A stretch of 64,000 nt of DNA from NCBI RefSeq assembly GCF_014206975.1, contig NZ_JACHOU010000005.1, positions 1 to 64,000 of the forward strand. The letters run 5' to 3'. The translations under genes and the position numbers were made by a program. The notes beneath the pieces are model-generated. The model saw only the letters and a program-made list of their open reading frames with translations. It had not been told where the DNA came from and made no database searches. The DNA is from Aminobacter aganoensis (GTDB lineage: Bacteria; Pseudomonadota; Alphaproteobacteria; Rhizobiales; Rhizobiaceae). This document shows, piece after piece, positions 30,238-61,338 of the stretch. Within the stretch, counting starts at the first letter, position 1, and each line of letters starts with the position of its first letter.

Positions 30238-32910
30238 TCACTCCGCTGCCTGAAGCTGCCCGGCATCGAGCATCGCCCTGATCTCCGACCGGCAGGAACC
30301 GCAATTGGTGCCGGCTTTCAGGACCTTGCCGATCTCGTCGAGGCTGTCGCTGCCGCCCGAGATTGCCGCCGCGAGCTGGTTCACCCCGACATTGAAACAC
30401 GAGCAGACGATGCGGCCGACCGCCGGCACCGGCACCGGCGCACGCCCCGACAAAAGCGCGCGCCGGTCGAGCGGCGACAGCGGCTCGCCCGAAGCAAGCA
30501 GCGACAGCAGCCAGTCGCGTTCGGGCAGATGCCCCTGCGGCGCCACCAGCAATGCTTCGGCAAGCCTGCCTTCGCCGTCGGTCGCCGCGGCGCGGAAGGT
30601 CGAGGTTCGCCGGTCGGTGTATTCGAGCAACTGGTCGGCCGGCACCACGTCGACCAGCCGCCGGGCGAGCAGGATGCCTTGCTCCGGCGGCTCGGTGCCG
30701 GACAATTCGTAGACCCATCCACCCGCCACCGCCGCCCGGCTCCAGTGGACCAACCCTGTCGGCCTGATGTCGCGTCGGGTCATCAGCACGCCGGCCCAGG
30801 CGACCGGCTCGCGCATGATGCGCACCGGAACGTGCTTGAGTTCCGGCTGGCCGGAGAACGGGTCCGTGACCGGCGCCGACAGCGATCCGGCCGCGGCGTT
30901 GGCGGCAAAGCGCCCGCTCCAGTGCATCGGCAAAAACGCCTCGCCCATGCGCTGGCCGATGCCAATCCGCGCCTTGGCCCGGACGCAGCCATAGCGGCTA
31001 TCGATGCGGACGAGGTCGCCGTCGGCGATCCCCTGCGCGGCCGCGTCGGAAGCGTTGAGTTCTACAGCCGGCTCCGGCGCATTGGCCATCAGGCGCGGCA
31101 CCCTGCCGGTGCGGGTCATGGTGTGCCACTGGTCGCGCAACCGGCCGGTGTTGAGAACGAGCGGAAACGCCGCGTCGACCGGCAGTGCCGCGCCTTCCTG
31201 GCGGACGGCCACGAAACGGGCGCGGCCGTCGGCAGTGGGAAACAGGCCATCGCCGAGCAACCGTTGCGCCCCAGCCGACGCGCCTATGGGAAACGGCCAA
31301 TGCAATGGCACAAGCGCGTCGTATTCGGCGTCGGTGAGACCGGCCAGGCCGCCAATGTCGAACAGGCGGGCGCCGTCATTCTCGAAGGCGGAAAGTGCGG
31401 CATGCTCGCGAAAAATCGCTGCCGGACCCGGATGGTCGAAGGCTTCGGCAAAACCCATGCGCCGGGCGACCTCCGAGACGATCCACCAGTCCGGACTGAC
31501 GTCGCCCGGCATCGGCAGGAACGATTTCTGGCGCGATATCAGGCGCTCGGAATTGGTCACCGTGCCGTCCTTCTCGCCCCAGGCGGCAGCAGGCAGGAGC
31601 ACGTCGGCGAAGTGGCTGGTGTCGGTGCGGGTGACATCCGAGACGACGACGAATTGGCACGTCTTCAGCGCCGCACGCACCTTGCCGGCATCCGGCATGC
31701 TGACGGCGGGGTTGGTGCCCATCACCCACAGCGCCTTGATGCGCCCGTCGCCAACCGCCTCGAACATGTCCACCGCCTTGAGCCCCGGCCTGCGGGCAAT
31801 GTCGGGCGCGTTCCAGAAGCGGCCGACGCGTTCCGGCGCCGACGGATCGTCGAATCCCATATGCGCGGCAAGCTGGTTGGCGAGGCCGCCGACCTCGCGG
31901 CCGCCCATGGCGTTGGGCTGGCCGGTGACCGAAAACGGCCCCATGCCCGGCCTGCCGATGCGCCCCGTCGCCAGGTGGCAGTTGAGGATCGCATTGACCT
32001 TGTCGGTGCCGTGCGCCGACTGGTTGACGCCCTGGCTGTAGACGGTGACGGTCCGCTCCGTCGAAGCGAACCAGCCGTAGAAAGTCGCCACATCGGCGGG
32101 ATCGAGATCGCAGCCGTCGGCGACACGCCTCACCGATGGCGCGTCGGCGACGGCAAGGCCGAGCGTCGCGTCGAAGCCCGACGTGTGGGCGGCGACATAG
32201 GCCTGGTCGACGGCGCCGCAGCCCGCGAGATGCGCCAGCAGGCCATTGAACAACAGCACGTCGGTGCCCGGCTTCAGCTGCAGGTGCAGGTCGCACTCCG
32301 CAGCGGTTGCCGTGCGGCGCGGATCGATGACGACGATCCTGGTGCCGCGCTCGGCCCACGCGGCAAGCAGGCGTTGGTAGAGGATCGGATGACACCAGGC
32401 GGTGTTGGACCCGACGAGCACGACGAGATCGGCCTCCTCGAAATCCGCGTAGACGCCGGGCACGATATCTTCGCCGAAGGCGCGTTTGTGGCCGGCGACG
32501 CTGGATGCCATGCACAGCCGCGAATTGGTGTCGATGTTGGCCGAGCCGATGAAACCCTTCATCAGCTTGTTGGCGACGTAATAGTCCTCGGTGAGCAATT
32601 GCCCCGAGACGTAGAAGGCGACCGAATCCGGCCCGTGCTGCGCAATGGTTTCGGAAAACCGCCTGGCCACCAAATCGAGCGCATCGTCCCAGGCGGCGCG
32701 GCGGCCGGCGATCTCGGGATGAAGCACCCGCCCGTCGAGACCGAGCGTTTCGCCGAGCGCCGAGCCCTTGGAACAGAGCTTGCCCGCATTGGCGGGATGG
32801 CCGGGGTCGCCACGCACGGACACCGTGCCGTCCGCGGCGACCCGTGCCTGCACGCCGCAACCCACCCCGCAATAGGGACAGGCGGTCCGCACCTCGCGTG
32901 CATCCGTCAC
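30238..32910 (-). CDS. nasA: Assimilatory nitrate reductase catalytic subunit NasA
   Basis: An 890-residue Mo-bis-MGD enzyme that reduces nitrate to nitrite in the cytoplasm. The [4Fe-4S] motif TACPYCGVGCGV opens the protein; SRLCMASSVAGHKRAFG carries the Mo-ligand Cys region; the molydopterin-binding C-terminal domain follows, then a BFD-like [2Fe-2S] domain with CSCFNVG and NCGSCR. The start is a GTG 2 nt after the nirD stop; the frame is open upstream, but only as a nirD shadow. Last gene of narK-nirBD-nasA; it converges on the GT-deacetylase gene with 6 nt between and no terminator. Confidence 0.93.
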   Translation of the reverse strand: MTDAREVRTACPYCGVGCGVQARVAADGTVSVRGDPGHPANAGKLCSKGSALGETLGLDGRVLHPEIAGRRAAWDDALDLVARRFSETIAQHGPDSVAFYVSGQLLTEDYYVANKLMKGFIGSANIDTNSRLCMASSVAGHKRAFGEDIVPGVYADFEEADLVVLVGSNTAWCHPILYQRLLAAWAERGTRIVVIDPRRTATAAECDLHLQLKPGTDVLLFNGLLAHLAGCGAVDQAYVAAHTSGFDATLGLAVADAPSVRRVADGCDLDPADVATFYGWFASTERTVTVYSQGVNQSAHGTDKVNAILNCHLATGRIGRPGMGPFSVTGQPNAMGGREVGGLANQLAAHMGFDDPSAPERVGRFWNAPDIARRPGLKAVDMFEAVGDGRIKALWVMGTNPAVSMPDAGKVRAALKTCQFVVVSDVTRTDTSHFADVLLPAAAWGEKDGTVTNSERLISRQKSFLPMPGDVSPDWWIVSEVARRMGFAEAFDHPGPAAIFREHAALSAFENDGARLFDIGGLAGLTDAEYDALVPLHWPFPIGASAGAQRLLGDGLFPTADGRARFVAVRQEGAALPVDAAFPLVLNTGRLRDQWHTMTRTGRVPRLMANAPEPAVELNASDAAAQGIADGDLVRIDSRYGCVRAKARIGIGQRMGEAFLPMHWSGRFAANAAAGSLSAPVTDPFSGQPELKHVPVRIMREPVAWAGVLMTRRDIRPTGLVHWSRAAVAGGWVYELSGTEPPEQGILLARRLVDVVPADQLLEYTDRRTSTFRAAATDGEGRLAEALLVAPQGHLPERDWLLSLLASGEPLSPLDRRALLSGRAPVPVPAVGRIVCSCFNVGVNQLAAAISGGSDSLDEIGKVLKAGTNCGSCRSEIRAMLDAGQLQAAE

Positions 32911-32912
32911 GG

Positions 32913-33251
32913 TCAGGCTGCCTTCGAAGCGAGGAGATCGAGGGCGATGAACAGCCGCCCGTCCTCGACCTTGAGCGGGATGGTCCTGACCGAACCTTCG
33001 TCGGCGCCGAGCGCCTTGCCGGTTTCCAGCGAAAACACCCAGTTGTGCAGCGGGCAGGTTACCGCAGCGCCATGCACGATGCCCTGGCTCAGCGGCCCGC
33101 CTCTGTGCGGGCAATGGTCCTCGATGGCGAAGACCTGATCCTCTGCGGTGCGAAACACGCCGATCTTGCCCTGGGGCGTGTCCACGCAGCGCGCCCCACG
33201 CAACGGTATGTCGGCGATCGTGCCGATCGCGATCCAGTCCATCTCGCTCAT
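32913..33251 (-). CDS. nirD: Nitrite reductase (NADH) small subunit NirD
   Basis: A 112-residue Rieske-fold protein, partner of NirB. The [2Fe-2S] ligand motifs are intact: CPHRGGPLS and CPLHNWVF, giving Cys-X-His and Cys-X2-His pairs. It overlaps the nirB stop by 4 nt (ATGA), so translation is coupled. Confidence 0.93.
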   Translation of the reverse strand: MSEMDWIAIGTIADIPLRGARCVDTPQGKIGVFRTAEDQVFAIEDHCPHRGGPLSQGIVHGAAVTCPLHNWVFSLETGKALGADEGSVRTIPLKVEDGRLFIALDLLASKAA

Positions 33252-35698
33252 TCCGCTGCCTCCGCAAAACCGACCGACGCCATCGGGCGGAACTCGTGCT
33301 TGTCCTTGCCGGAGACGCGCTCCGACCATGGGTCGACCTGGGCGAATTTCTGGCTGAAGACGAAGCGCTCGTAATAGGCCTGGCGCTTGCCGGCATCGTC
33401 GAGGATCTGGCGCCTGATCTCGGCCACGCCGACACGCTTGGCCCATTTGTAGATGCGTTCGAGATATCGGCCCTGCTCGCGATACATCTGCGTCAGTGCG
33501 ACGATGACTTCGAGCGCCTCGTCCTCGTCCCTGACCAGGCCGAGCACCTCGGTGCCCTTGATGTCGAGGCCGGCGGCACCGGCGAAGTGGATCTCGAAGC
33601 CGGAGTCCACGCAGATCACGCCGACATCCTTGCAGGTCGCCTCGGCACAGTTGCGCGGGCAACCGGACACCGCCATCTTGAGCTTGGCCGGGGTCCACGA
33701 GCCCCACATGAACTTTTCGATGCGGATGCCGAGCCCGGTCGAATCCTGGGTGCCGAAACGGCACCAGTCGGAGCCGACGCAGGTCTTCACCGTGCGAAGC
33801 CCCTTGGCATATGCGTGCCCCGAGACGAAGCCGGCCTTGCCGAGATCGGACCACACCGCCGGCAGGTCTTCCTTGCGGATGCCCAGCATGTCGATGCGCT
33901 GGCCGCCGGTCACCTTGACCAGCGGTATCTCGAACTTGTCGACGACATCGGCGATGGCGCGCAACTCGCTGGCATTCGTCACCCCGCCCCACATCCGCGG
34001 CACCACCGAATAGGTGCCGTCCTTCTGGATGTTGGCGTGCACGCGCTCGTTGATGAAGCGCGACTGGTAGTCGTCGGCATATTCATCCGGCCAGTCGCAG
34101 ACGAGGTAATAGTTGAGCGCTGGCCGGCACTTGGCACAGCCGCAGGAAGTCTTCCACTGCAGCTCCTGCATCATCTCGGGGATCGTCTTCAGCCCCTTGG
34201 CCTTGATCAGCCGGCGCACGTCGTCATGGCCGAGATCGGTGCATGTGCACATCGGCTGCACGGCGGCGGGGTTGTAGCTGTCGCCGAGGGTAAGCGACAT
34301 CAGCTGCTCGACCAGTCCAGTGCAGGAACCGCACGAGGCCGACGCCTTGGTATGCGCCCGCACGTCGTCGAGCGACGTCAGCCCCTTTTCGGTGATGGTG
34401 CCGGTGATCTTGCCCTTGCAGACGCCGTTGCAGCCGCAGATTTCCGCATCATCCGCCAGTGCCGCAACGGCCGCCATAGGGTCCAGCGGCGATCCTCCCT
34501 GATAGGCCTGGCCGAAGATCAGCGTCTCGCGCATCTCGGAGATGTCAGTCCGCTTCTTCTTGAGATCGTTGAACCAGGCGCCGTCGCCGGTATCGCCATA
34601 GAGCACGGTGCCGATGACACGGTTGTCCCTCAGCACCAGCCGCTTGTAGACGCCGGCAGCGGCGTCGCGAAGCACGATCTCCTCGCGGTCGTCGCCATCG
34701 GCGAAATCGCCGAGCGAATAGAGGTCGATGCCGGTGACCTTGAGCTTGGTCGGCGTGTCGGAGTGGACGAAGGCGGCCGCCTCGTCGCCGGCGAGATGGG
34801 CGGCAGCGACCCGCGCCATCTCGTAGAGCGGCGCGACGAGCCCGTAGACCTGGCCGCCAACCTCGGCGCACTCGCCGAGCGCCAGGATGTCGGGATCGGA
34901 GGTGCGCATGCCCTGGTCGACGACGATGCCGCGATTGGTCTCGATGCCGGCATCCCTGGCGATCGCCGCATTGGGCCGGATGCCGACCGCCATGACGACG
35001 AGCGTAGCCGGCACGATGGTGCCGCAGGCCAGTTCCACGCCCTCGACCCTGCCCTTGCCGACGATGGCCTTGGTGTTGGCCTTGGTCATGACCTTGATGC
35101 CGCGCGCCTCGACTGCCTTCTGCAGCAGGTAGCCGGCGGCCGGGTCGAGCTGGCGCTCCATCAGCGTCGGCATGACGTGCAGCACGGTCACGTCCATGCC
35201 GCGCGCCTGCAGGCCGGCTGCGGCCTCGAGGCCGAGCAGGCCACCGCCGATGACGATCGCCTTGGCCCGCGATTGGGCGGCAAGCAGCATGGCGTTGACG
35301 TCGTCGAGGTCGCGGTAGCTCAGCACCCCGGCCATGTCGTTGCCGGGCACAGGGATGACGAACGGCACCGAGCCGGTGGCGATGACCAGCCTGTCATAGG
35401 GCTCGGTCACGCCATGATCTGACGTGACGGTCTTGGCCGCGCGGTCGATGGCAACGATCCTGTGGCCCTTGTAGAGCGTGATGCCGTGCTTGATGTACCA
35501 GCCGTCGCCGTGGATGATGATCTCTTCATAGCCCTTCTCACCCGACAGGACCGGCGACAGCATGATGCGGTTGTAGTTCACGCGCGGCTCGGCGTTGAAG
35601 ATGGTGACCTGGTAGCGGCCGGGCGCCGCTTCCAACAGATGCTCCAGCATGCGCCCGGGGGCCATGCCGTTGCCGATGATGACAAGTCTCTCGGTCAT
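33248..35698 (-). CDS. nirB: Nitrite reductase (NADH) large subunit NirB
   Basis: An 816-residue siroheme enzyme that reduces nitrite to ammonium with NADH. Domains in order: FAD/NADH binding (LVIIGNGMAPGRMLEHLL at the start, AIVIGGGLLGLEAA near 150), two BFD-like [2Fe-2S] segments with CGCNGVCKG and CGSCTGLVEQL, then the ferredoxin-like and siroheme/[4Fe-4S] domain with CVGSDWCRFG and SGCPRNCAEA. The start MTERLVII has AAGGA ahead of it and lies 20 nt after the narK stop. Confidence 0.95.
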   Translation of the reverse strand: MTERLVIIGNGMAPGRMLEHLLEAAPGRYQVTIFNAEPRVNYNRIMLSPVLSGEKGYEEIIIHGDGWYIKHGITLYKGHRIVAIDRAAKTVTSDHGVTEPYDRLVIATGSVPFVIPVPGNDMAGVLSYRDLDDVNAMLLAAQSRAKAIVIGGGLLGLEAAAGLQARGMDVTVLHVMPTLMERQLDPAAGYLLQKAVEARGIKVMTKANTKAIVGKGRVEGVELACGTIVPATLVVMAVGIRPNAAIARDAGIETNRGIVVDQGMRTSDPDILALGECAEVGGQVYGLVAPLYEMARVAAAHLAGDEAAAFVHSDTPTKLKVTGIDLYSLGDFADGDDREEIVLRDAAAGVYKRLVLRDNRVIGTVLYGDTGDGAWFNDLKKKRTDISEMRETLIFGQAYQGGSPLDPMAAVAALADDAEICGCNGVCKGKITGTITEKGLTSLDDVRAHTKASASCGSCTGLVEQLMSLTLGDSYNPAAVQPMCTCTDLGHDDVRRLIKAKGLKTIPEMMQELQWKTSCGCAKCRPALNYYLVCDWPDEYADDYQSRFINERVHANIQKDGTYSVVPRMWGGVTNASELRAIADVVDKFEIPLVKVTGGQRIDMLGIRKEDLPAVWSDLGKAGFVSGHAYAKGLRTVKTCVGSDWCRFGTQDSTGLGIRIEKFMWGSWTPAKLKMAVSGCPRNCAEATCKDVGVICVDSGFEIHFAGAAGLDIKGTEVLGLVRDEDEALEVIVALTQMYREQGRYLERIYKWAKRVGVAEIRRQILDDAGKRQAYYERFVFSQKFAQVDPWSERVSGKDKHEFRPMASVGFAEAAE

Positions 35699-35718
35699 AA
35701 CGGTGTTCCTTGAGGGTA

Positions 35719-37011
35719 TCACTGGGCAGTGAGGGGAAGCGGCTCGCCGGCGCTGTCGCGCGACAGCCTGCGGATCGACAGGTGCATCCAGACGAGCGAG
35801 GCGACGACGATGGCGAACAGCAGCATGAAGCAGCTCGACCACAGGCCGGTGAGGTCGTTGAGCGCGCCGAAGGCGATGGGCAGGATGAAGCCGCCAAGGC
35901 CGCCGATCATGCCGACGACACCGCCGACGGCGCCGACATTGTCGGGGTAGTAGGCCGGAATGTGCTTGTAGACGGCGGCCTTGCCCAGGCTCATGAAGAA
36001 GCCGAGCACGAAGGCGACGACCATGAAGGCTGCCGGCCCGACCTCGAAATGGAACGACATCGGCCCGCTGATGCCGCGCACGACATAGTCGGCCGTCGGC
36101 AGCGACAGGATCAGCGTCGCGATGGCCGACATGCCGAAGGTCCAGTACATCACCGTCCGCGCGCCGACCCGGTCGGACAGCACGCCGCCATAGGCGCGGA
36201 AGATGCTGGCCGGGATCGAATAGGCGGCGCCGATCATGCCGGCGGTGACGATGTCGAAGCCGTAGACGCCGATCAGGTAGCGCGGCAGCCACAGCGCAAG
36301 TGCGACGAAGGCACCGAAGGAGAAGAAGTAATAGAGGCCGAAGCGCCAGACCTGGACGTTGCGGAGCGGCGCGAACTCGCTCCAGAAGCTCCTGGGCTGG
36401 GCGCCCTGGATGCGGCGCTGGCGGATGACGGGGTCGTCTTCGCTGCCGAACCAGAAGATGAAGGCCATGAAGCCGAGGCAAGCTGCCCAGATCACCGCCA
36501 CCTCCTGCCAACCGCCGGCGAGCAGCACGAAGGGCGCGAGGAACTTGGTGATGGCGGCACCGACATTGCCGACGCCGAAGATGCCGAGTGCGGTCCCCTG
36601 CCTGCCCGAGGGAAAGAAGCGCGAGACATAGGCGACCCCGACCGCAAACGAACCGCCGGCGAGGCCGACGCCCAGCGCGGCGACCAGCATCTGCGCATAG
36701 GTCTGGGCGAAGGCGAGCAGGAAGGTGGCGATGGCCGCAGCCAGCATGGTCGCGGTGTAGACGAGACGCCCGCCGAAACGGTCGGTCCACACGCCGAGCA
36801 CGATGCGCACCAGCGAGCCGGTCAGGATCGGGGTGCCGATCAGCAACCCGAATTGCGTCTCGGACAGGCCGAGCTCCTGCTTGATGCGCACGCCGATGAT
36901 CGAAAAGATCGTCCACACGGCAAAGCAGACGGTGAAAGCGAGGGTGGAGATGGCAAGCGCCCTGGCCGGAGCATTGTCCTGGCTCGGCGCGGCTTGGAAG
37001 GGTGCGGTCAT
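35719..37011 (-). CDS. narK: Nitrate/nitrite MFS transporter (NarK/NasA type)
   Basis: A 430-residue, 12-helix transporter of the nitrate/nitrite porter family. GTPILTGSLVRIVLGVWTDRFGGR and the Gly-rich segment GGLGGFILP, typical nitrate signature regions, are present. It imports nitrate for NirBD and NasA. The start MTAPFQAA lies after the leader terminator; the frame remains open into the leader, but that part is not membrane-like and is read only as RNA structure. First gene of the operon. Confidence 0.92.
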   Translation of the reverse strand: MTAPFQAAPSQDNAPARALAISTLAFTVCFAVWTIFSIIGVRIKQELGLSETQFGLLIGTPILTGSLVRIVLGVWTDRFGGRLVYTATMLAAAIATFLLAFAQTYAQMLVAALGVGLAGGSFAVGVAYVSRFFPSGRQGTALGIFGVGNVGAAITKFLAPFVLLAGGWQEVAVIWAACLGFMAFIFWFGSEDDPVIRQRRIQGAQPRSFWSEFAPLRNVQVWRFGLYYFFSFGAFVALALWLPRYLIGVYGFDIVTAGMIGAAYSIPASIFRAYGGVLSDRVGARTVMYWTFGMSAIATLILSLPTADYVVRGISGPMSFHFEVGPAAFMVVAFVLGFFMSLGKAAVYKHIPAYYPDNVGAVGGVVGMIGGLGGFILPIAFGALNDLTGLWSSCFMLLFAIVVASLVWMHLSIRRLSRDSAGEPLPLTAQ

Positions 37012-37066
37012 TGTCGGCTCCGTTGTGCGGCGTGGGAGGCGCCGCGCTGGTCTGGATCGCGAAAAC

Positions 37067-37133
37067 AAAAAAGCTGCCGGCCAGGGTCGCGCGTCCGTAC
37101 ATCCGGGATCGCGGTCGTCTGGTCGGCAGCTTT
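37067..37133 (-). terminator. Leader terminator of the narK-nirBD-nasA operon
   Basis: On the minus strand AAAGCTGCCG (37133-37124) pairs with CGGCAGCTTT (37079-37070) and runs into six T residues (37072-37067). The 44-nt loop is long. It lies ahead of narK, so full transcription needs read-through. The adjacent hexaloop hairpins suggest that NasT prevents its formation. Confidence 0.8.
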
Positions 37134-37139
37134 GCCTGG

Positions 37140-37178
37140 GGCGCCCGCCACTGGACGCCGATATGTCTGGCCTTTCAG
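37140..37178 (-). promoter_or_regulatory. Tandem ANTAR-type hexaloop hairpins (NasT antitermination target)
   Basis: Two hairpins in the nas leader RNA. P1: CTG (37178-37176), loop AAAGGC (37175-37170), CAG (37169-37167), extended by imperfect pairing. P2: GGCGTCC (37159-37153), loop AGTGGC (37152-37147), GGGCGCC (37146-37140), 7 bp with one G-U. Both six-base loops have A at position 1 and G at position 4, the signature recognised by ANTAR proteins. They stand directly before the terminator, as in known NasT-controlled leaders. Confidence 0.75.
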
Positions 37179-37192
37179 CCTCGTCTATCGCA

Positions 37193-37209
37193 ATGCACAA
37201 ACCATGCCA
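37193..37209 (-). promoter_or_regulatory. Sigma-54 promoter of the nitrate assimilation operon
   Basis: TGGCATGGTTTGTGCAT on the minus strand matches the -24/-12 consensus TGGCACGN4TTGCA at nearly all positions, with exactly 10 bp between GG and GC. The predicted start near 37183 is just upstream of the first hexaloop hairpin. Sigma-54 control implies NtrC activation under nitrogen limitation. Confidence 0.75.
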
Positions 37210-37252
37210 GCTCGGCGGGGCTGCGGCAATTCCGTTTACTTTCAGATAGTTA

Positions 37253-37344
37253 TGCACTAACGACGATGCAGACCGTCCAGGTGCCCGGCGCTCAAGGGAT
37301 GTACAGCCGGCAACGGTCCATGCCTATTTCATGTGCAGTGCACA
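37253..37344. promoter_or_regulatory. Possible NtrC-type sites upstream of the nas promoter
   Basis: TGCAC-N9-TGCA (37253-37270) and the perfect palindrome TGTGCAGTGCACA (37332-37344) contain GTGCA/TGCAC half-sites like NtrC targets, though spacing differs from TGCAC-N7-GTGCA. They lie roughly 70-160 bp upstream of the predicted start, a normal enhancer distance. Confidence 0.35.
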
Positions 37345-37359
37345 AAAATTGACGGCAAG

Positions 37360-38595
37360 TCAGCCGCCGAGAACCCGCTGGGCGGCGATGTAGCCGTCGA
37401 GATCGTCGGGATCGAACAGGCCGCCGTCGAAGAAGCCGTCCGGTCCGAGCACGAGGCTGGCTCCAGCCGACCCGACCGGCGTCGGCACGGGCAGCGCGCC
37501 CTCGACCTTGGCGTTCGCCCCCGGCAGGGCCGCACCCAGCGGCTTGAGCGCGGCCCGGTAGAGATCGGGCCGGTAGGTTTCGCGGGCAATCGCGGCATTC
37601 TCGGGCGAGTGCCCGGCCTGCCCCCAACGCACCATCTGGCTGTAGAACCACAGCGCGTGGCTCTTCCACGGAAAGGTTGCCGCCCTCGCCTGGGGCACGA
37701 AGAAGTCCTCGACCACGACGGAACTGTCCGTCGATGTCCCGAGATGCCCCGAAAGCGCCGGCGACATCCAGCCGGCCGGACGCCCGACATAGGCCGCAGC
37801 CGACATGATGCCTGCAAGCTCAGTGCGATTGGCTGGCGAGGCGCACCACTGCGCGGCGTGATGGATGGCGCGCAGCAATGCCGCCAGCGCATCGGGATTG
37901 GCTTCGGCCCAGCGCGCGTCGGCGCCCAGCACCTTTTCCGGGCTGGAGCGCCAGATCTTGGCCTTCACCGTGACGATGCGGCCATGGCCGAGCATGACGG
38001 CGGCGGTATTCCACGGCTCGCCGGCGCAAAAGCCGTCGAGGGCGCCCGAGCCCAGCGCATCGGCCATCAGCGGCGGCGGCAGGATGACGATCTCGATGTC
38101 GCGATCGGGATCGATGCCGCAGGCGGCGAGCCAGTAGCGCAGTTCGTAGTTGTGGCCCGAATAAGGGTGCACGACGGCAAAACGCAGCGGTGCCGCACCG
38201 GCACGGGCGCGGTCGGCAACGACGCCCCGAAGCGCGTTGCCAGCGGCGCCGGGCGAAAGATCCCCGCTCGCGCCATGCCCGACCATCTCGCGCCACAGCG
38301 CATTCGACACGGTGACGGCGTTGCCGCCGAGGCCCAGCGCCATCGGCACGACGGTGGTCGCGGCCAGCGGCGTCAGCCCGAGATTGCAGGCGATAGGCAT
38401 CGGCCCCAGCATGTGCGCCACCTGGAAATGCCCGACGGCGAGCCGGTCGCGGATGCTGGCCCACGACGTCTCACGCACAAGCGTGAGTTCGATGCCCTCG
38501 GCCGCGGCAAAGCCCTTCTCCCTGGCGGCGACCAGCAGCGCGCTGTCGAGCAGTGGCAGGAAACCGGCGGAGATCTCGAAGCGGGCGTCGGTCAT
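37360..38595 (-). CDS. nasS: NasS, cytoplasmic nitrate/nitrite sensor (NrtA/CmpA-like)
   Basis: A 411-residue protein of the nitrate-binding NrtA/CmpA fold. It has no signal peptide, unlike a transport receptor, which marks it as the cytoplasmic sensor NasS. In known systems NasS holds NasT inactive until nitrate or nitrite binds. Its start overlaps the nasT stop by 4 nt, so the two are made together. It lies directly upstream of the nas leader on the same strand. Confidence 0.9.
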   Translation of the reverse strand: MTDARFEISAGFLPLLDSALLVAAREKGFAAAEGIELTLVRETSWASIRDRLAVGHFQVAHMLGPMPIACNLGLTPLAATTVVPMALGLGGNAVTVSNALWREMVGHGASGDLSPGAAGNALRGVVADRARAGAAPLRFAVVHPYSGHNYELRYWLAACGIDPDRDIEIVILPPPLMADALGSGALDGFCAGEPWNTAAVMLGHGRIVTVKAKIWRSSPEKVLGADARWAEANPDALAALLRAIHHAAQWCASPANRTELAGIMSAAAYVGRPAGWMSPALSGHLGTSTDSSVVVEDFFVPQARAATFPWKSHALWFYSQMVRWGQAGHSPENAAIARETYRPDLYRAALKPLGAALPGANAKVEGALPVPTPVGSAGASLVLGPDGFFDGGLFDPDDLDGYIAAQRVLGG

Positions 38596-41187: not shown

Positions 41188-41201
41188 TTGCCGAAACGCA
41201 A
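41188..41201. promoter_or_regulatory. NnrR/FNR-type box before the DUF2249 gene
   Basis: TTGCC-GAAA-CGCAA, an inverted repeat of the TTGCG-N4-CGCAA type with one mismatch. It is centred about 102 bp upstream of the DUF2249 start on the minus strand, leaving about 60 nt of leader for a class II arrangement. Confidence 0.55.
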
Positions 41202-41225
41202 ACAATTCGGGGAAATGGCCCCAGC

Positions 41226-41239
41226 TTGGCATTTCGCAA
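41226..41239. promoter_or_regulatory. NnrR/FNR-type box before hemN
   Basis: TTGGC-ATTT-CGCAA, one mismatch from TTGCG-N4-CGCAA. Centred 69.5 bp before the hemN ATG, so a start 41 bp downstream would leave a leader of about 28 nt. It lies 38 bp from the other box in the same divergent gap. Confidence 0.6.
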
Positions 41240-41301
41240 AGAGACCTCGCGCCCGAGGGCCTAGATCGGTCGCAAGTCACAGCGACAGAACTGGAAAAGC
41301 C

Positions 41302-42654
41302 ATGCCCCCGACCATCCTGGAGAAATATGGCGAGGCGCGCCTGCCCCGCTACACAAGCTACCCCACCGCGCCGCGCTTCTCGCCGGCCATCGGCACGGGC
41401 GCCTATGGCGACTGGCTGCAGCAGCTGGCATGCAACGAACCGGTGTCGCTGTACCTGCACATCCCGTTCTGCCGCTCAATGTGCTGGTACTGCGGCTGCC
41501 ACACCAGCATAACCAGGCAGGACCGCCCGATCCTCGACTATCTCAACGTCCTGCACGACGAGATCCGCATGGTCGCCCAACGCATCCCGCAGCGCCTGCC
41601 GGTTGGCGAGGTGCATTTCGGCGGCGGCACGCCGACCATCGTCTCGCCGGCCGAATTCCTGGCGCTGACAGCCCTGCTGCGCGACCATTACGACTTCTCC
41701 GACAGAACCGGCATCGCCGTCGAGATCGACCCGCGGCGGCTGACGGCCGAGATGGCGCTGGCGCTGGGGGCGGCGGGCGTCACCCGCGCCAGCCTTGGCG
41801 TCCAGAGCTTCGATCCGGTGGTGCAGAAGGCGATCAACCGCATCCAGACCGAAAAGCAGACGGCGGAGGCCACCGACAACCTGCGCCGCGCCGGCGTCGG
41901 CGGCATCAATTTCGACCTGATCTACGGCCTGCCGCACCAGACGGTGCAATCCTGCATCGACACCGCCAATGCTGCCATCGCCATGCTGCCCGATCGCTTC
42001 GCAGTGTTCGGCTATGCCCACATCCCTTCGTTCAAGAAGCACCAGCGCATGATCGACGAGGCCGCCCTGCCCGACGGCGCCGCGCGCAATGCCCAAGCGG
42101 AAGCTATCGCCGAGACCCTGACCGCCGCCGGCTACAGGCAGATCGGCCTCGACCATTTCGCACTGCCCGGCGACGACCTCGTCAAGGTCCAGGAAGCAGG
42201 CAGGCTGCGGCGCAACTTCCAGGGCTACACCACCGACAATTGCGAGACCCTGATCGGCTTCGGCGCATCGGCCATCGGCCGCATGAAGGGCGGTTATGTG
42301 CAGAACGAGGTCGCGCCCGGCCTTTATGCCCAGCACATCGCCTCGGGAAAGCTGGCGACCGCCAAGGGCTACCGCCTGACAGCGGAAGACCGGCTGCGGG
42401 CCGACATCATCGAACGCCTGATGTGCGATTTCAGCGCCGATGTCGGCGCGATCTGCAAGGCGCACGGCGTCGACCCATCGGCGCTGCTGGCCGGCAATGG
42501 CAGGCTGAAGCAACTGGCCAACGACGGCGTGGTGACGATTGCCGACGGCGTGGTCCATGTCAGCCGGGAGCACCGCTTCGTCATCCGTGCGGTCGCCGCA
42601 GCCTTCGACGCCTACATCGACCAGTCGGCGCGTACGCACAGCAAGGCGGCTTAG
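41302..42654 (+). CDS. hemN: Oxygen-independent coproporphyrinogen III oxidase HemN
   Basis: A 450-residue radical SAM enzyme that makes protoporphyrinogen without oxygen, as needed for haem synthesis during denitrification. The [4Fe-4S] motif is C57-X3-C61-X2-C64, followed by Cys66 typical of true HemN; FGGGTPTIV and the HemN C-terminal domain follow. The start MPPTILEKYGE gives the normal N-terminus. It sits between the DUF2249 gene and the nor cluster, under an apparent NnrR/FNR box. Confidence 0.93.
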   Translation: MPPTILEKYGEARLPRYTSYPTAPRFSPAIGTGAYGDWLQQLACNEPVSLYLHIPFCRSMCWYCGCHTSITRQDRPILDYLNVLHDEIRMVAQRIPQRLPVGEVHFGGGTPTIVSPAEFLALTALLRDHYDFSDRTGIAVEIDPRRLTAEMALALGAAGVTRASLGVQSFDPVVQKAINRIQTEKQTAEATDNLRRAGVGGINFDLIYGLPHQTVQSCIDTANAAIAMLPDRFAVFGYAHIPSFKKHQRMIDEAALPDGAARNAQAEAIAETLTAAGYRQIGLDHFALPGDDLVKVQEAGRLRRNFQGYTTDNCETLIGFGASAIGRMKGGYVQNEVAPGLYAQHIASGKLATAKGYRLTAEDRLRADIIERLMCDFSADVGAICKAHGVDPSALLAGNGRLKQLANDGVVTIADGVVHVSREHRFVIRAVAAAFDAYIDQSARTHSKAA

Positions 42655-42760
42655 GCCGAGCGTCCCCTGAAAAGGTCGCGTTCCTTCGCGTCCCCCTGTC
42701 CTGCCGGACGGAGGGCGCGCGCGACGGAACTCGGCGCCTAACATTTCATCAACAAAAGCA

Positions 42761-42792
42761 AAAAGGCCCGGCTCTGGCGCGCCGGGCCTTTC
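42761..42792. terminator. Bidirectional terminator between hemN and norD
   Basis: AAAAGGCCCGGC and GCCGGGCCTTT form an 11-bp stem with an 8-nt loop, with A residues before and T residues after, so it can act on both strands between the convergent hemN and norD genes. Confidence 0.85.
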
Positions 42793-42812
42793 GCCATCGC
42801 GACCTTGTCCCC

Positions 42813-44711
42813 CTATCCTGCAAGGCTGCGATAGATGGCGGGAAGGGCTGCCGGCAGCTTCGAGATGTTACCGACCACGGCATAGCCGTTCTGGCCGAAC
42901 AGCATCGGTATGTAGGACTTCGCCTCGCGGTCGACCGTCACGCCGAAGACGCCAAGGCCGCTGCGCCGCGCCTCCACCACCGCGCGCCGGCTGTCCTCCA
43001 GCGCGAAGCGGCCCTCATAGTGGTCGAGGTCGTTGGGCTTGCCGTCGGTCAGCACCAGAAGCAGCTTCTTGCGGTTGGGCTGCCGGGCCAGCTCCGAGCT
43101 GGCGTGGCGGACGGCCGCCCCGATCCGGGTGTAGTAGCCCGGCTTCAGCGCGGCGATACGGGCCTCGACCGCAGCGCTCATCGGTTCGTCGAAGGCCTTG
43201 ACGGTCTCGACGCGCACCCAGTCGCGCCGCCGCGAGGTGAAGGTCAGGATCGAGTGGTTGTCGCCGCAGGCGGCGAGCCCGTTGGCCAGGATCAGCAACG
43301 CCTCCTTCTCGACGTCGAGCACCCGGCGGTTGTCGAACCAGGCATCGGTCGAGAGCGACACGTCGACCAGGATGGTGACGGCGAGGTCGTGCGCCTGCGG
43401 CCGGCTCATCAGGTGGATGCGGTCGCTGCCCTGGCCGCCGGCGGCAAGGTCGCAACGCCCGCGCACCACCGCATCGAGGTCGAGCTCGGCACCGTCGAAC
43501 TGGGCGCGCAGCATCTCGCGCCGCGGCCTCAAGACCTCGAACTGGCGGCGCACCCGGCGAATGAGGCGCCGGGTCTCCAGATCCGGCTCCCCGGCTGTCC
43601 CGGCTTCCGCGGCAGGCGCCGCCAGCACGCGGCAATGATCGGCAAGATAGCTGCCGCTCCGGAAATCCCATTCGGGATAGGTCAGTTCCGCCGTCAGCGG
43701 CGTTCGATCCAGTGCTTCCGGCGGCAGGTCGAGGTCGAAGCGGAAGCGCGAGGCCGGGCGCCCCTTGCGCTCGCCGAGCGTCATGTCGTCGAGGTCTTCG
43801 GCGGCCTTGGCATCGTCGTCGCTGTCGTCCGAGGGACGGTCGACATTGACCATCTCGGCCATCGCCAGGATCTTCTCGAAGCGGTTAAGGATGAACGGGC
43901 TGCGGTCGTCCTTGCGCCCCTCCTGGTTCTCGCGCACGGCAACCTGGCGCTCGATCTCGACGCCACCGGCATCGCGGCCGCCGGTCACCGGTTCGTCCTC
44001 GTCGCGGCGGGGTGCCGTCTCCGGCCGCAGCAGCGCGTCGGGCCACAGGGGGACGGGCAGCATCCGCAGGTACCCCGCCGGAGCGCGGTGCGGAAAGATT
44101 GCAGGCAGCGTATCGTCAGGCAGGCCGGCCTGCTGCCTGAGCAGGCTGGTCACGCGCCGCTCGACATGCGCCTCGACCGAGGGCAGCGGTGCACGATGGC
44201 GCGCAGAAAGCGTTGCCGCCGCCAGCCGCCGATAGCGGCGGCCGAGCCCCGGAAAGGTTTCCGTCACCCTGGCAACCGTCGCCTCCGCCCTCAGCAAGGC
44301 TTCGAGGTCGCGCAGCAGCGGGTCGCTCTCGACGATGGGATCGAGCGGCATCAAGGCCATGTAGGCCGCAAGCCAGATGTAGAGATCGCGGTTGAGCCCC
44401 TTGTCGGGAAACAGGTCGATCACCGACGGCAGCATCAGCGACGAGCCGTCGCGCGCCGGCTGGGCGAGCTTCTCCTCCCCGAGGCCCATGCGCTGGCGCC
44501 AGCCGAGGCGATGGCCCGATGTCTTGCCGCGCACGGTGGCGATCTGGACCGCACCCTCGCCGCCGAAACCGCGGAAGCAGACCGCCAGCACCGGCTGCAC
44601 CGCGGCCAGATGCACCGCATGCTCGGGGTGGCGCGGCCAGGTCTGGACATGGCCGATCAGGCGATGCCAGGCGCGGCCGACCGTTTCTTCCAGCTCGAGG
44701 AAATCAAGCAT
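42813..44711 (-). CDS. norD: NorD, nitric oxide reductase activation protein
   Basis: A 632-residue protein. The C-terminal von Willebrand A domain has the MIDAS motif LVDVSLSTD (DxSxS) and an acidic, Asp-rich central region (DDSDDDAKAAEDLDD). NorD works with the AAA+ protein NorQ to mature or insert the non-haem iron of NorB. The start MLDFLELEE is 9 nt after the norQ stop. Confidence 0.92.
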   Translation of the reverse strand: MLDFLELEETVGRAWHRLIGHVQTWPRHPEHAVHLAAVQPVLAVCFRGFGGEGAVQIATVRGKTSGHRLGWRQRMGLGEEKLAQPARDGSSLMLPSVIDLFPDKGLNRDLYIWLAAYMALMPLDPIVESDPLLRDLEALLRAEATVARVTETFPGLGRRYRRLAAATLSARHRAPLPSVEAHVERRVTSLLRQQAGLPDDTLPAIFPHRAPAGYLRMLPVPLWPDALLRPETAPRRDEDEPVTGGRDAGGVEIERQVAVRENQEGRKDDRSPFILNRFEKILAMAEMVNVDRPSDDSDDDAKAAEDLDDMTLGERKGRPASRFRFDLDLPPEALDRTPLTAELTYPEWDFRSGSYLADHCRVLAAPAAEAGTAGEPDLETRRLIRRVRRQFEVLRPRREMLRAQFDGAELDLDAVVRGRCDLAAGGQGSDRIHLMSRPQAHDLAVTILVDVSLSTDAWFDNRRVLDVEKEALLILANGLAACGDNHSILTFTSRRRDWVRVETVKAFDEPMSAAVEARIAALKPGYYTRIGAAVRHASSELARQPNRKKLLLVLTDGKPNDLDHYEGRFALEDSRRAVVEARRSGLGVFGVTVDREAKSYIPMLFGQNGYAVVGNISKLPAALPAIYRSLAG

Positions 44712-44719
44712 GGCCGGCC

Positions 44720-45532
44720 TCAGCGGATCAGGGAATCGGCAAGCTCGACCAGCGCCGCCTTGACATCGGGCTCGTCGGTCAGCGGCTCGATCATCGCGGC
44801 AAGCACGGCTTCGCGCGCCGGCACGCCGGCATCGATGAGCGTGGCACAATAGACGAGCAGGCGGGTCGAAGCGCCCTCCTCCAGGTCGTGGCCCTTGAGC
44901 GCGCGGATGCGCCGGGCGAGTTCGACCAGCGGCGCGACCTGGCCTTCGGCCAGCCCGCTTTCCGCCGACACCACCGCGACCTCCTCCGCCTTGGGCAGGA
45001 AATCGAACTCGATGGCGACGAAGCGCTGGCGCGTGCTCGGCTTCAGGCTTTTCAGCAGGTTCTGGTAGCCGGGATTGTAGGACACCACGAGCATGAAGCT
45101 CGCTGGCGCCATCAGCTCTTCGCCGGTGCGCTCGAGCGGCAGGATGCGGCGGTCGTCGGTCAGGGGATGCAGCACCACGGCAACGTCCTTCCGCGCCTCG
45201 ACGATCTCGTCGAGATAGCAGATGCCGCCGTCGCGCACGGCGCGCGTCAGCGGCCCGTCGACCCAGACGGTATCGCCACCCATCAGCAGGTAACGGCCGG
45301 TGAGATCGGCGGCGGCAAGATCGTCATGGCACGAGACGGTGGACAGCGGCAGGCCGAGCTTCGCCGCCATGTGGCTGACGAAGCGGGTCTTGCCGCATCC
45401 GGTGGGGCCCTTGAGCAGCAGCGGCAGCCGCCGCGCCCAGGCGCGCTCGAACAGACTGCATTCATTGCCGGAGGGGCTGTAAAAGGCGGGGCTGTCGGCG
45501 GCGGGGCGGACATTCGGCAAGGCAATGGTCAT
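44720..45532 (-). CDS. norQ: NorQ, MoxR-type AAA+ ATPase
   Basis: A 270-residue AAA+ protein of the CbbQ/NirQ/NorQ family. Walker A is GPTGCGKT near residue 42, Walker B GGICYLDEI, with sensor and Arg-finger regions following (VSYNPGYQNLLKSLKPSTRQRF). It activates nitric oxide reductase together with NorD, whose gene follows. It lies 72 nt after norB, behind a strong hairpin. Confidence 0.92.
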   Translation of the reverse strand: MTIALPNVRPAADSPAFYSPSGNECSLFERAWARRLPLLLKGPTGCGKTRFVSHMAAKLGLPLSTVSCHDDLAAADLTGRYLLMGGDTVWVDGPLTRAVRDGGICYLDEIVEARKDVAVVLHPLTDDRRILPLERTGEELMAPASFMLVVSYNPGYQNLLKSLKPSTRQRFVAIEFDFLPKAEEVAVVSAESGLAEGQVAPLVELARRIRALKGHDLEEGASTRLLVYCATLIDAGVPAREAVLAAMIEPLTDEPDVKAALVELADSLIR

Positions 45533-59128: not shown

Positions 59129-59320
59129 GAATTTCCCCAAATGTTTCGCAACCCGTTGTCGTCCGGATATACTTCGGGGCGTTTGAAGCATTGCCGCTCG
59201 CCGCCACCACCACCGACACCTCTGCCTTAGTCTCCTTTACAATGCCCCAAGGCCATGCAGTCATGGGACATCCGGAGGAAATGGGAGGGCGGTGCGTTGG
59301 GAGGCGCGCTGCAATTGCCG

Positions 59321-61215
<1,895 letters not shown>

Positions 61216-61216
<1 letters not shown>

Positions 61217-61322: not shown

Positions 61323-61338
61323 TGGCACGGCACTTGCT
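61323..61338 (+). promoter_or_regulatory. Sigma-54 (-24/-12) promoter of the monooxygenase gene
   Basis: TGGCACGGCACTTGCT equals the consensus TGGCACGN4TTGCW at every fixed position. Predicted start near 61349, giving a leader of about 160 nt before the ATG at 61508. Confidence 0.85.

Follow-up and report, generated by a model that had tools for sequence, protein, structure and literature searches.

A probable NasS-NasT antitermination leader behind a sigma-54-type promoter before the narK-nirB-nirD-nasA genes of Aminobacter

Results

Gene order around the leader

In the 64,000-nucleotide stretch of Aminobacter aganoensis DNA analyzed here (the window), the gap between nasS and narK very probably carries a NasS-NasT antitermination leader, placed behind a sigma-54/NtrC promoter and before narK-nirB-nirD-nasA; we put the probability of this reading at about 0.88. 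An earlier note, made from the letters alone, had proposed a sigma-54 promoter, a NasT/ANTAR leader and a terminator before narK, and this overall reading was well supported by conservation, covariation and an independent covariance model. The evidence observed comprises the anatomy of the region, its conservation and covariation, the overlap between the second hairpin and the terminator, and the co-occurrence of the motif with nasS.

The source genome is ~5.8 Mb in size, and the genes concerned follow one another on its minus strand in the order nasT, nasS, gap, narK, nirB, nirD and a nasA-like nitrate reductase gene:

39188-38592, minus strand: nasT, receiver domain plus ANTAR domain (Pfam; ANTAR match in own genome)
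38595-37360, minus strand: nasS, nitrate/nitrite sensor partner of the NMT1_2 family (Pfam; relatives)
37011-35719, minus strand: narK, MFS nitrate/nitrite transporter (Pfam MFS_1; top NCBIfam model TIGR00886, under its cut-off)
33248-35698 (start approximate), minus strand: nirB, large subunit of nitrite reductase (in the frame 33248-37102, residues 473-1262 match TIGR02374 above cut-off)
32913-33251 (start approximate), minus strand: nirD, nitrite reductase small subunit (TIGR02378 above cut-off)
30238-32916 (start approximate), minus strand: nasA-like assimilatory nitrate reductase (named by position and family)

A receiver-ANTAR protein and an NMT1/NrtA-like sensor, adjoining nitrate assimilation genes, make up the composition of a NasS-NasT system, and both genes were found immediately upstream of the leader, where the earlier note had placed them. 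The nasA-like open reading frame (ORF) was matched by models for formate dehydrogenase alpha, NasA, NasC and other molybdopterin enzymes, all below their cut-offs. Judged by NasS, Aminobacter spp. are the nearest named relatives, the protein of A. niigataensis being 92% identical to that of the window.

Beside the nas cluster, at 41188-45532 of the window, lie hemN (plus strand), a VWA-type-looking ORF (minus strand) and an ATPase gene (minus strand) with a sub-threshold GvpN match, whose product may be NorQ-like. These genes are perhaps a neighboring nitrogen-oxide gene set.

Tandem hexaloop hairpins, with P2 reaching into the terminator

The RNA elements between nasS and narK were located as follows (loops in brackets):

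37159-37140, minus strand: P1, GGCGTCC[AGTGGC]GGGCGCC, hexaloop with A at position 1 (A1) and G at position 4 (G4) (sequence, covariation, model)
37136-37125, minus strand: P2, GGC[AAAGCT]GCC, A1/G4 hexaloop; overlaps the 5' arm of the terminator
37132-37067, minus strand: intrinsic terminator, with the 5' arm at 37132-37119 and the 3' arm plus a T-run of six T at 37084-37067

Both the 7-bp hairpin with the loop AGTGGC and the intrinsic terminator ending in six T had been described in the earlier note and were recovered at these positions. The AGTGGC hairpin, which the note had named P2, is in fact P1, since a second hexaloop hairpin follows at 37136-37125. This true P2 had been missed, and its 3' side is the start of the terminator 5' arm. 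Measured against the membership criteria for ANTAR dual-hexaloop leaders of Ramesh et al. 2012, P1 has 7 bp and P2 3 bp (at least 3 bp being required), both with hexanucleotide loops closed by a C:G pair, and P2 (37136-37125) overlaps the terminator 5' arm (37132-37119). The linker between P1 and P2 is 3 nt, or 4 nt if P1 is counted as 6 bp, compared with 5-12 nt in eut leaders, and the distance of 13 nt from loop to loop is the commonest value among the relatives described below (61 of 89).

The apical region of the terminator is long and holds a small hairpin of its own. The leader terminator was not reported by a simple promoter/terminator scan, which accepts loops of up to 8 nt and presumably passed over the much longer loop here. 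Rfam gave no match at the gathering threshold in the whole window; relaxing the limit to E 10 over 36900-37400 brought up only three sub-threshold matches, to unrelated eukaryotic families.

The predicted fold that holds P2 (-33.3 kcal/mol) falls short of the terminator fold (-47.3 kcal/mol) by 14 kcal/mol, so that NasT would have to act during transcription. When folded alone, P2 was predicted to form a 4-bp tetraloop hairpin (A1 paired with U6), not a hexaloop. RNA folded up to the end of P2 was predicted to contain P1 and a small P2 hairpin, the terminator winning once the T-run has been made. The stretch from P2 to the T-run is 52 nt in the window, and the median of 88 relatives is ~53 nt, a length that would give NasT time to capture P2.

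Conservation and covariation of the P1/P2 pair

Relatives were collected by means of NasS from two sources: a set of 101 genomes, 58 of which gave a match and from which the best 30 loci were taken, and a species-level collection with 328 relatives, of which the best 80 were kept. Removal of seven duplicate leaders from these 110 loci left 103, of which L008 and L079 come from one genome, giving 102 distinct leaders; counts based on the 103 (unconstrained search, promoter, NtrC and fold-pairing) keep that genome twice. The P1/P2 pair was present in 92 of the 102 distinct nasS-adjacent leaders (93 of 103 before merging, 89 detected automatically and four by eye: L051, L086, L087 and L094). A variant pair in L064, with U-G instead of C:G closing P1, stands outside the 93, and the pair was not seen in nine of the 103 leaders (L026, L028, L029, L030, L054, L067, L092, L093 and L099).

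In the automatic set, loop position 1 was A in 88 of 89 P1 and 84 of 89 P2 loops; G4 is uninformative there because the search demanded it, and C:G closing was also part of this first search. In a further search that specified no loop letter and required only that the second stem lead into a terminator, 87 of 103 leaders had tandem hexaloops, with A1 in 85 and G4 in 85 of the 87 P1 loops. The register of P2 was ambiguous in this letter-free search, as the shifted form CAG[GCAAAG]CTG, also of 3 bp, ties in many leaders. The register was settled in favor of AAAGCT by lineages in which only AAAGCY works, by the A-U outer pair of L044 and L048, and by the C:G closing rule.

The closing pair was C:G in both hairpins of all 47 aligned distinct motifs, in which 95.5% of the cells pair and five pairs have changed on both sides, accounting for 16 cells. 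None of 500 shuffles reached the observed values, and slid partners gave at most two such pairs. Most of the covariation lies in P1. The share of P2 is a single pair, in which A-U stands as a replacement twice (L044 and L048) and G-U twice, with one break, at the outer pair of L086. The P2 5' arm GGC was kept in 87 of 89 leaders, and was unpaired, with the 3' arm in the terminator, in 84 of 88 folds. Conservation of an arm that is left unpaired in the terminator fold is not explained by the terminator; it is explained by P2.

A covariance model finds one site per genome, together with nasS

Two covariance models were built: R2, based on 22 motifs from outside Aminobacter, and R1, which is fuller and includes the window. 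With R2, the leader scored 50.2 bits (E 1.3e-8), and the next among matches lacking the motif 15.3 bits. In a search of the whole genome with R1, the site scored 54.6 bits and the next match 20.9 bits. Of the 6107 first-look candidates 150 were scored, and no second NasT target appeared among them above 20.9 bits. As far as this motif reaches, the NasT regulon is therefore one operon.

The covariance search of related genomes called for in the earlier note, performed with a model built here, returned one site each at E <=0.1 in seven of ten genus genomes. The same seven carry nasS and exactly one motif site, and the other three have neither; one of these three genomes is only 81% complete. Across the family, a site at E <=0.01 was found in 46 of 151 sampled genomes under stricter filters.

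Two further ANTAR proteins are encoded in the same genome, at L135:3783-5559 (minus strand) and L136:1554-3451 (plus strand). Judging from the translations, both adjoin AmiC-like-looking binding proteins, near transport or hydantoinase-like genes. At these two AmiC-AmiR-like loci, R2 found nothing above 15.3 bits (the top score being in L136).

A conserved sigma-54-type promoter with NtrC-like sites

Upstream of the hairpins, the following elements were located:

37209-37194, minus strand: sigma-54-type promoter TGGCATGGTTTGTGCA, GG-N10-GC (sequence, conservation, rpoN in genome)
37184-37182, minus strand: predicted transcription start, ~12 nt after the -12 C, from the spacing rule
37321-37337, minus strand: NtrC-like site TGCACATGAAATAGGCA, 8/10 against the consensus TGCAC-N7-GTGCA
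37344-37332, minus strand: palindrome TGTGCACTGCACA, overlapping the NtrC-like site TGCACATGAAATAGGCA

The promoter string and its GG-N10-GC spacing, reported in the earlier note, were located at 37209-37194, a position that is conserved in relatives. The element is an imperfect match, agreeing at 10 of 12 positions with the sigma-54 consensus. By itself such a string is common: the 64 kb contain 25 sites with at most two mismatches, against 25.2 expected from shuffles, and only four with 0 or 1 mismatch. Its weight therefore comes from position and conservation rather than from the rarity of the string. A sigma-54-type score of at least 9/12 was obtained for 76 of 92 distinct motif-bearing leaders (77 of 93 before one genome, counted twice, was merged), including all seven from Aminobacter, compared with 44 of 465 shuffles (9.5%). 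The -12 C was located 42-46 nt before the P1 loop in 64 of the 77 leaders scoring at least 9 (one genome twice). In sigma-54 promoters, transcription starts ~12 nt after the -12 C of the GC element, which in the window predicts a start at 37184-37182.

NtrC-like sites scoring at least 8/10 were present in 74 of these 77 leaders, compared with 107 of 770 shuffles, and were situated 115-135 bp upstream of the promoter in 58 of the 74. The genome also encodes rpoN and ntrC (702.5 bits, above cut-off). The element combines GG/GC spacing, a near-consensus match, retention in relatives and activator sites with the presence of both genes. Transcription of nasS, nasT and nasA is lowered in an ntrC mutant of Pseudomonas stutzeri (PMC8443478).

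These data bear on the alternative that the sigma-54 element is not a promoter, and that narK transcripts arise by read-through from nasTS or from another promoter, with the leader acting as an attenuator only. The imperfect match leaves some room for it, as do the 16 of 93 motif-bearing leaders that score below 9; twelve of these low scorers are six Hyphomicrobium, three Rubellimicrobium and three Proteobacteria MAGs, indicating that the RNA motif occurs without a sigma-54 promoter too. Nevertheless, we consider this alternative unlikely, given how widely the element is retained at a similar distance from P1, its presence in every Aminobacter leader, the NtrC-like sites at enhancer distance, and a promoter scan that found no sigma-70-type match in 36900-37450.

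Among the leaders that keep P1/P2 without a good sigma-54 match, L041-L043, L045-L047 and L050 (several from Hyphomicrobium) contain, by eye, a palindrome-like string, e.g., GAGTTGAA...TTTCAACTC, at about the place of the promoter. This string may mark another kind of promoter or operator in front of the same RNA switch. Elsewhere in the window, a perfect sigma-54-type string, TGGCACGGCACTTGCT (61323-61338, plus strand), was noticed close to where a flavin monooxygenase-like ORF begins; it adjoins, on the downstream side, a sigma-54 activator-like gene at 59255-61216.

A separate hairpin at the 5' end of the leader

Between the predicted start and P1, a further hairpin is predicted:

37180-37169, minus strand: H0, GGCU[GAAA]GGCC, tetraloop (predicted fold; called P1 in the earlier note)

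The earlier note had described this hairpin as having the loop AAAGGC. Those letters are present at 37175-37170, but such a loop would be closed by no more than three contiguous pairs, and the predicted fold has a GAAA tetraloop instead. The statement that both hexaloops of the note obey the A1/G4 rule consequently holds for AGTGGC, and for AAAGGC only as regards the letters. Loss of the A1/G4 positions in close relatives had been named as a test: the letters were kept in four of six Aminobacter relatives, in all four of which the closing stem is broken, and the other two (L003 and L007) have a palindromic repeat inserted into H0. The three contiguous pairs were thus found only in the window among the seven Aminobacter leaders. 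In L003 and L007, the promoter, P1, P2 and terminator are intact despite the palindromic repeats inside H0.

The segment from the start to P1 folds as a hairpin in 73 of the 77 leaders with a promoter score of at least 9 (one genome twice), with loops of 4 nt in 43, 5 nt in 21, 6 nt in four, 3 nt in four and 7 nt in one. Four leaders (L049, L058, L070 and L075) have no room for H0 and keep P1/P2. Over 63 distinct regions, obtained by leaving out repeats, leaders with insertions and leaders without room for H0, the folds were more stable than those of shuffled sequences (mean -7.57 vs. -4.03 kcal/mol; mean z -1.92; 51 of 63 below -1). The stems take many different complementary forms, so that the form is conserved and the letters are not. 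H0 is therefore real but is not P1; it is a separate 5'-end hairpin and, in Aminobacter, not one of the two NasT hairpins.

A qualifying A1/G4 hexaloop with C:G closing was detected in five of the 63 H0 regions (L012, L013, L053, L082 and L100), each 19-20 nt before the P1 loop. These five are possible triple-hexaloop leaders. They lend something to the idea of a three-hexaloop leader, in which NasT contacts H0, P1 and P2 and H0 is weak in Aminobacter; however, the remaining 58 H0 regions, that of the window included, have no qualifying hexaloop, and P1/P2 persist in the four leaders lacking H0. This makes such a reading quite unlikely for the window.

The original assignment, in which NasT binds H0 through AAAGGC together with the AGTGGC hairpin, both upstream of the terminator, is very unlikely. 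AAAGGC does fit the A1/G4 rule, and three contiguous pairs can close it in the window, yet the stem is broken in six of six Aminobacter relatives (two by inserted repeats), a 6-nt loop was predicted in only four of 73 H0 hairpins, four leaders leave no room for H0, and neither hexaloop overlaps the terminator. Without overlap, a pair of hexaloops upstream of the terminator would not alone explain how NasT blocks it. Finally, a plain terminator after nasS, with no ANTAR control and with hexaloops present by chance, would by itself insulate narK from nasTS, but is left with next to no probability by the motif conservation, the covariation and the co-occurrence with nasS within the genus.

More broadly, H0 may be a third module of rhizobial nas leaders, located at the extreme 5' end of the sigma-54 transcript. 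It might help to stabilize this RNA or to tune early elongation, and a few lineages may have turned it into part of a triple-hexaloop NasT target; this proposal is tentative, and we hold it to be doubtful at present.

Discussion

The NasS-NasT leader favored here suggests the following course of events. When nitrogen is short, NtrC bound ~125 bp upstream would activate sigma-54 RNA polymerase at 37209-37194, and transcription would begin near 37183. In the absence of nitrate, NasS would hold NasT, the nascent RNA would fold into the terminator at 37132-37067, and transcription would stop before narK. When nitrate or nitrite is present, NasS would let NasT go, and free NasT would bind the two hexaloops as each emerges, first that of P1 (37159-37140) and next that of P2 (37136-37125). 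Capture of P2 would take away the terminator 5' arm, allowing the polymerase to enter narK-nirB-nirD-nasA.

The layout found here, two hexaloop hairpins of which the second overlaps the terminator, is that described for ANTAR targets in general (PMC3369931, PMC8934654, PMC7496416), and a dual hairpin has already been recognized in NasT systems (PMC7496416). The closest systems are the NasS-NasT leaders of Paracoccus denitrificans (nasA), Bradyrhizobium (narK, nirA and nosR) and Azotobacter vinelandii, where nasT-nasS likewise lie beside or control the operon and hairpins precede the first structural gene. In this group, NasT binds the nasA leader and is freed from NasS by nitrate or nitrite (PMC3795266, PMC5424462, PMC6759348, PMC4724949). 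Binding of P. denitrificans NasT to the nasA leader with nitrate (PMC3795266) and the loss of growth on nitrate upon mutation of hairpin HI of that leader (PMC5424462) are in line with the present model, as is the behavior of a narK-lacZ fusion in B. japonicum, which was induced by nitrate, became undetectable when nasT was mutated and was derepressed when nasS was (PMC4724949). Two reports sit uneasily with it: mutation of another P. denitrificans hairpin, HII, hardly lowered expression (PMC5424462), and in B. diazoefficiens under denitrifying conditions narK rises, rather than falls, in a nasT mutant (PMC6759348).

The Aminobacter locus differs from the Paracoccus, Bradyrhizobium and Azotobacter NasS-NasT operons in its gene content, narK-nirBD-nasA. 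It also differs in its promoter region: in P. denitrificans, NtrC control was shown at nasT, and the site at the nasA leader is called 'as-yet-unidentified' (PMC5424462), whereas in Aminobacter a promoter and NtrC-like sites stand directly before the leader. Ntr control together with nitrate antitermination has been described for Klebsiella (PMC5424462), and the K. oxytoca nasF/NasR system shares with Aminobacter this combination, two A1/G4 hairpins and C:G closing (PMC7496416, PMC5424462). NasR, however, is one protein with its own nitrate-sensing domain, while in Aminobacter sensing and RNA binding would be divided between two separate proteins, NasS and NasT. The eut leaders bound by Enterococcus faecalis EutV likewise have two A1/G4 hexaloops, each on a stem of at least 3 bp, and there too the second one overlaps the terminator (PMC3369931, PMC8934654). 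They differ in responding to ethanolamine through a kinase and in having linkers of 5-12 nt, where a 3-nt construct worked poorly (PMC3369931), compared with the 3-4 nt of Aminobacter.

A literature search for NasT/NasS, to which most subscription journals were outside scope, returned no Aminobacter among the matches listed. With the same scope, no three-hairpin ANTAR target serving as a nas leader was among the matches listed, the one three-hairpin case being the RNA with three predicted hairpins that is bound by the mycobacterial ANTAR protein PdtaR (PMC8131098).

The probable NasT switch is now mapped for Aminobacter, where the leader belongs to an already known kind. The corrected anatomy changes which hairpins mutagenesis should target, and the shared core of P1, P2 and terminator provides a model of 36 positions with which NasT targets can be sought in alphaproteobacteria. 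Since this core persists where a good sigma-54 match is missing from the leader (several from Hyphomicrobium and three from Rubellimicrobium), control of initiation appears to evolve separately from the RNA switch, each as a module of its own.
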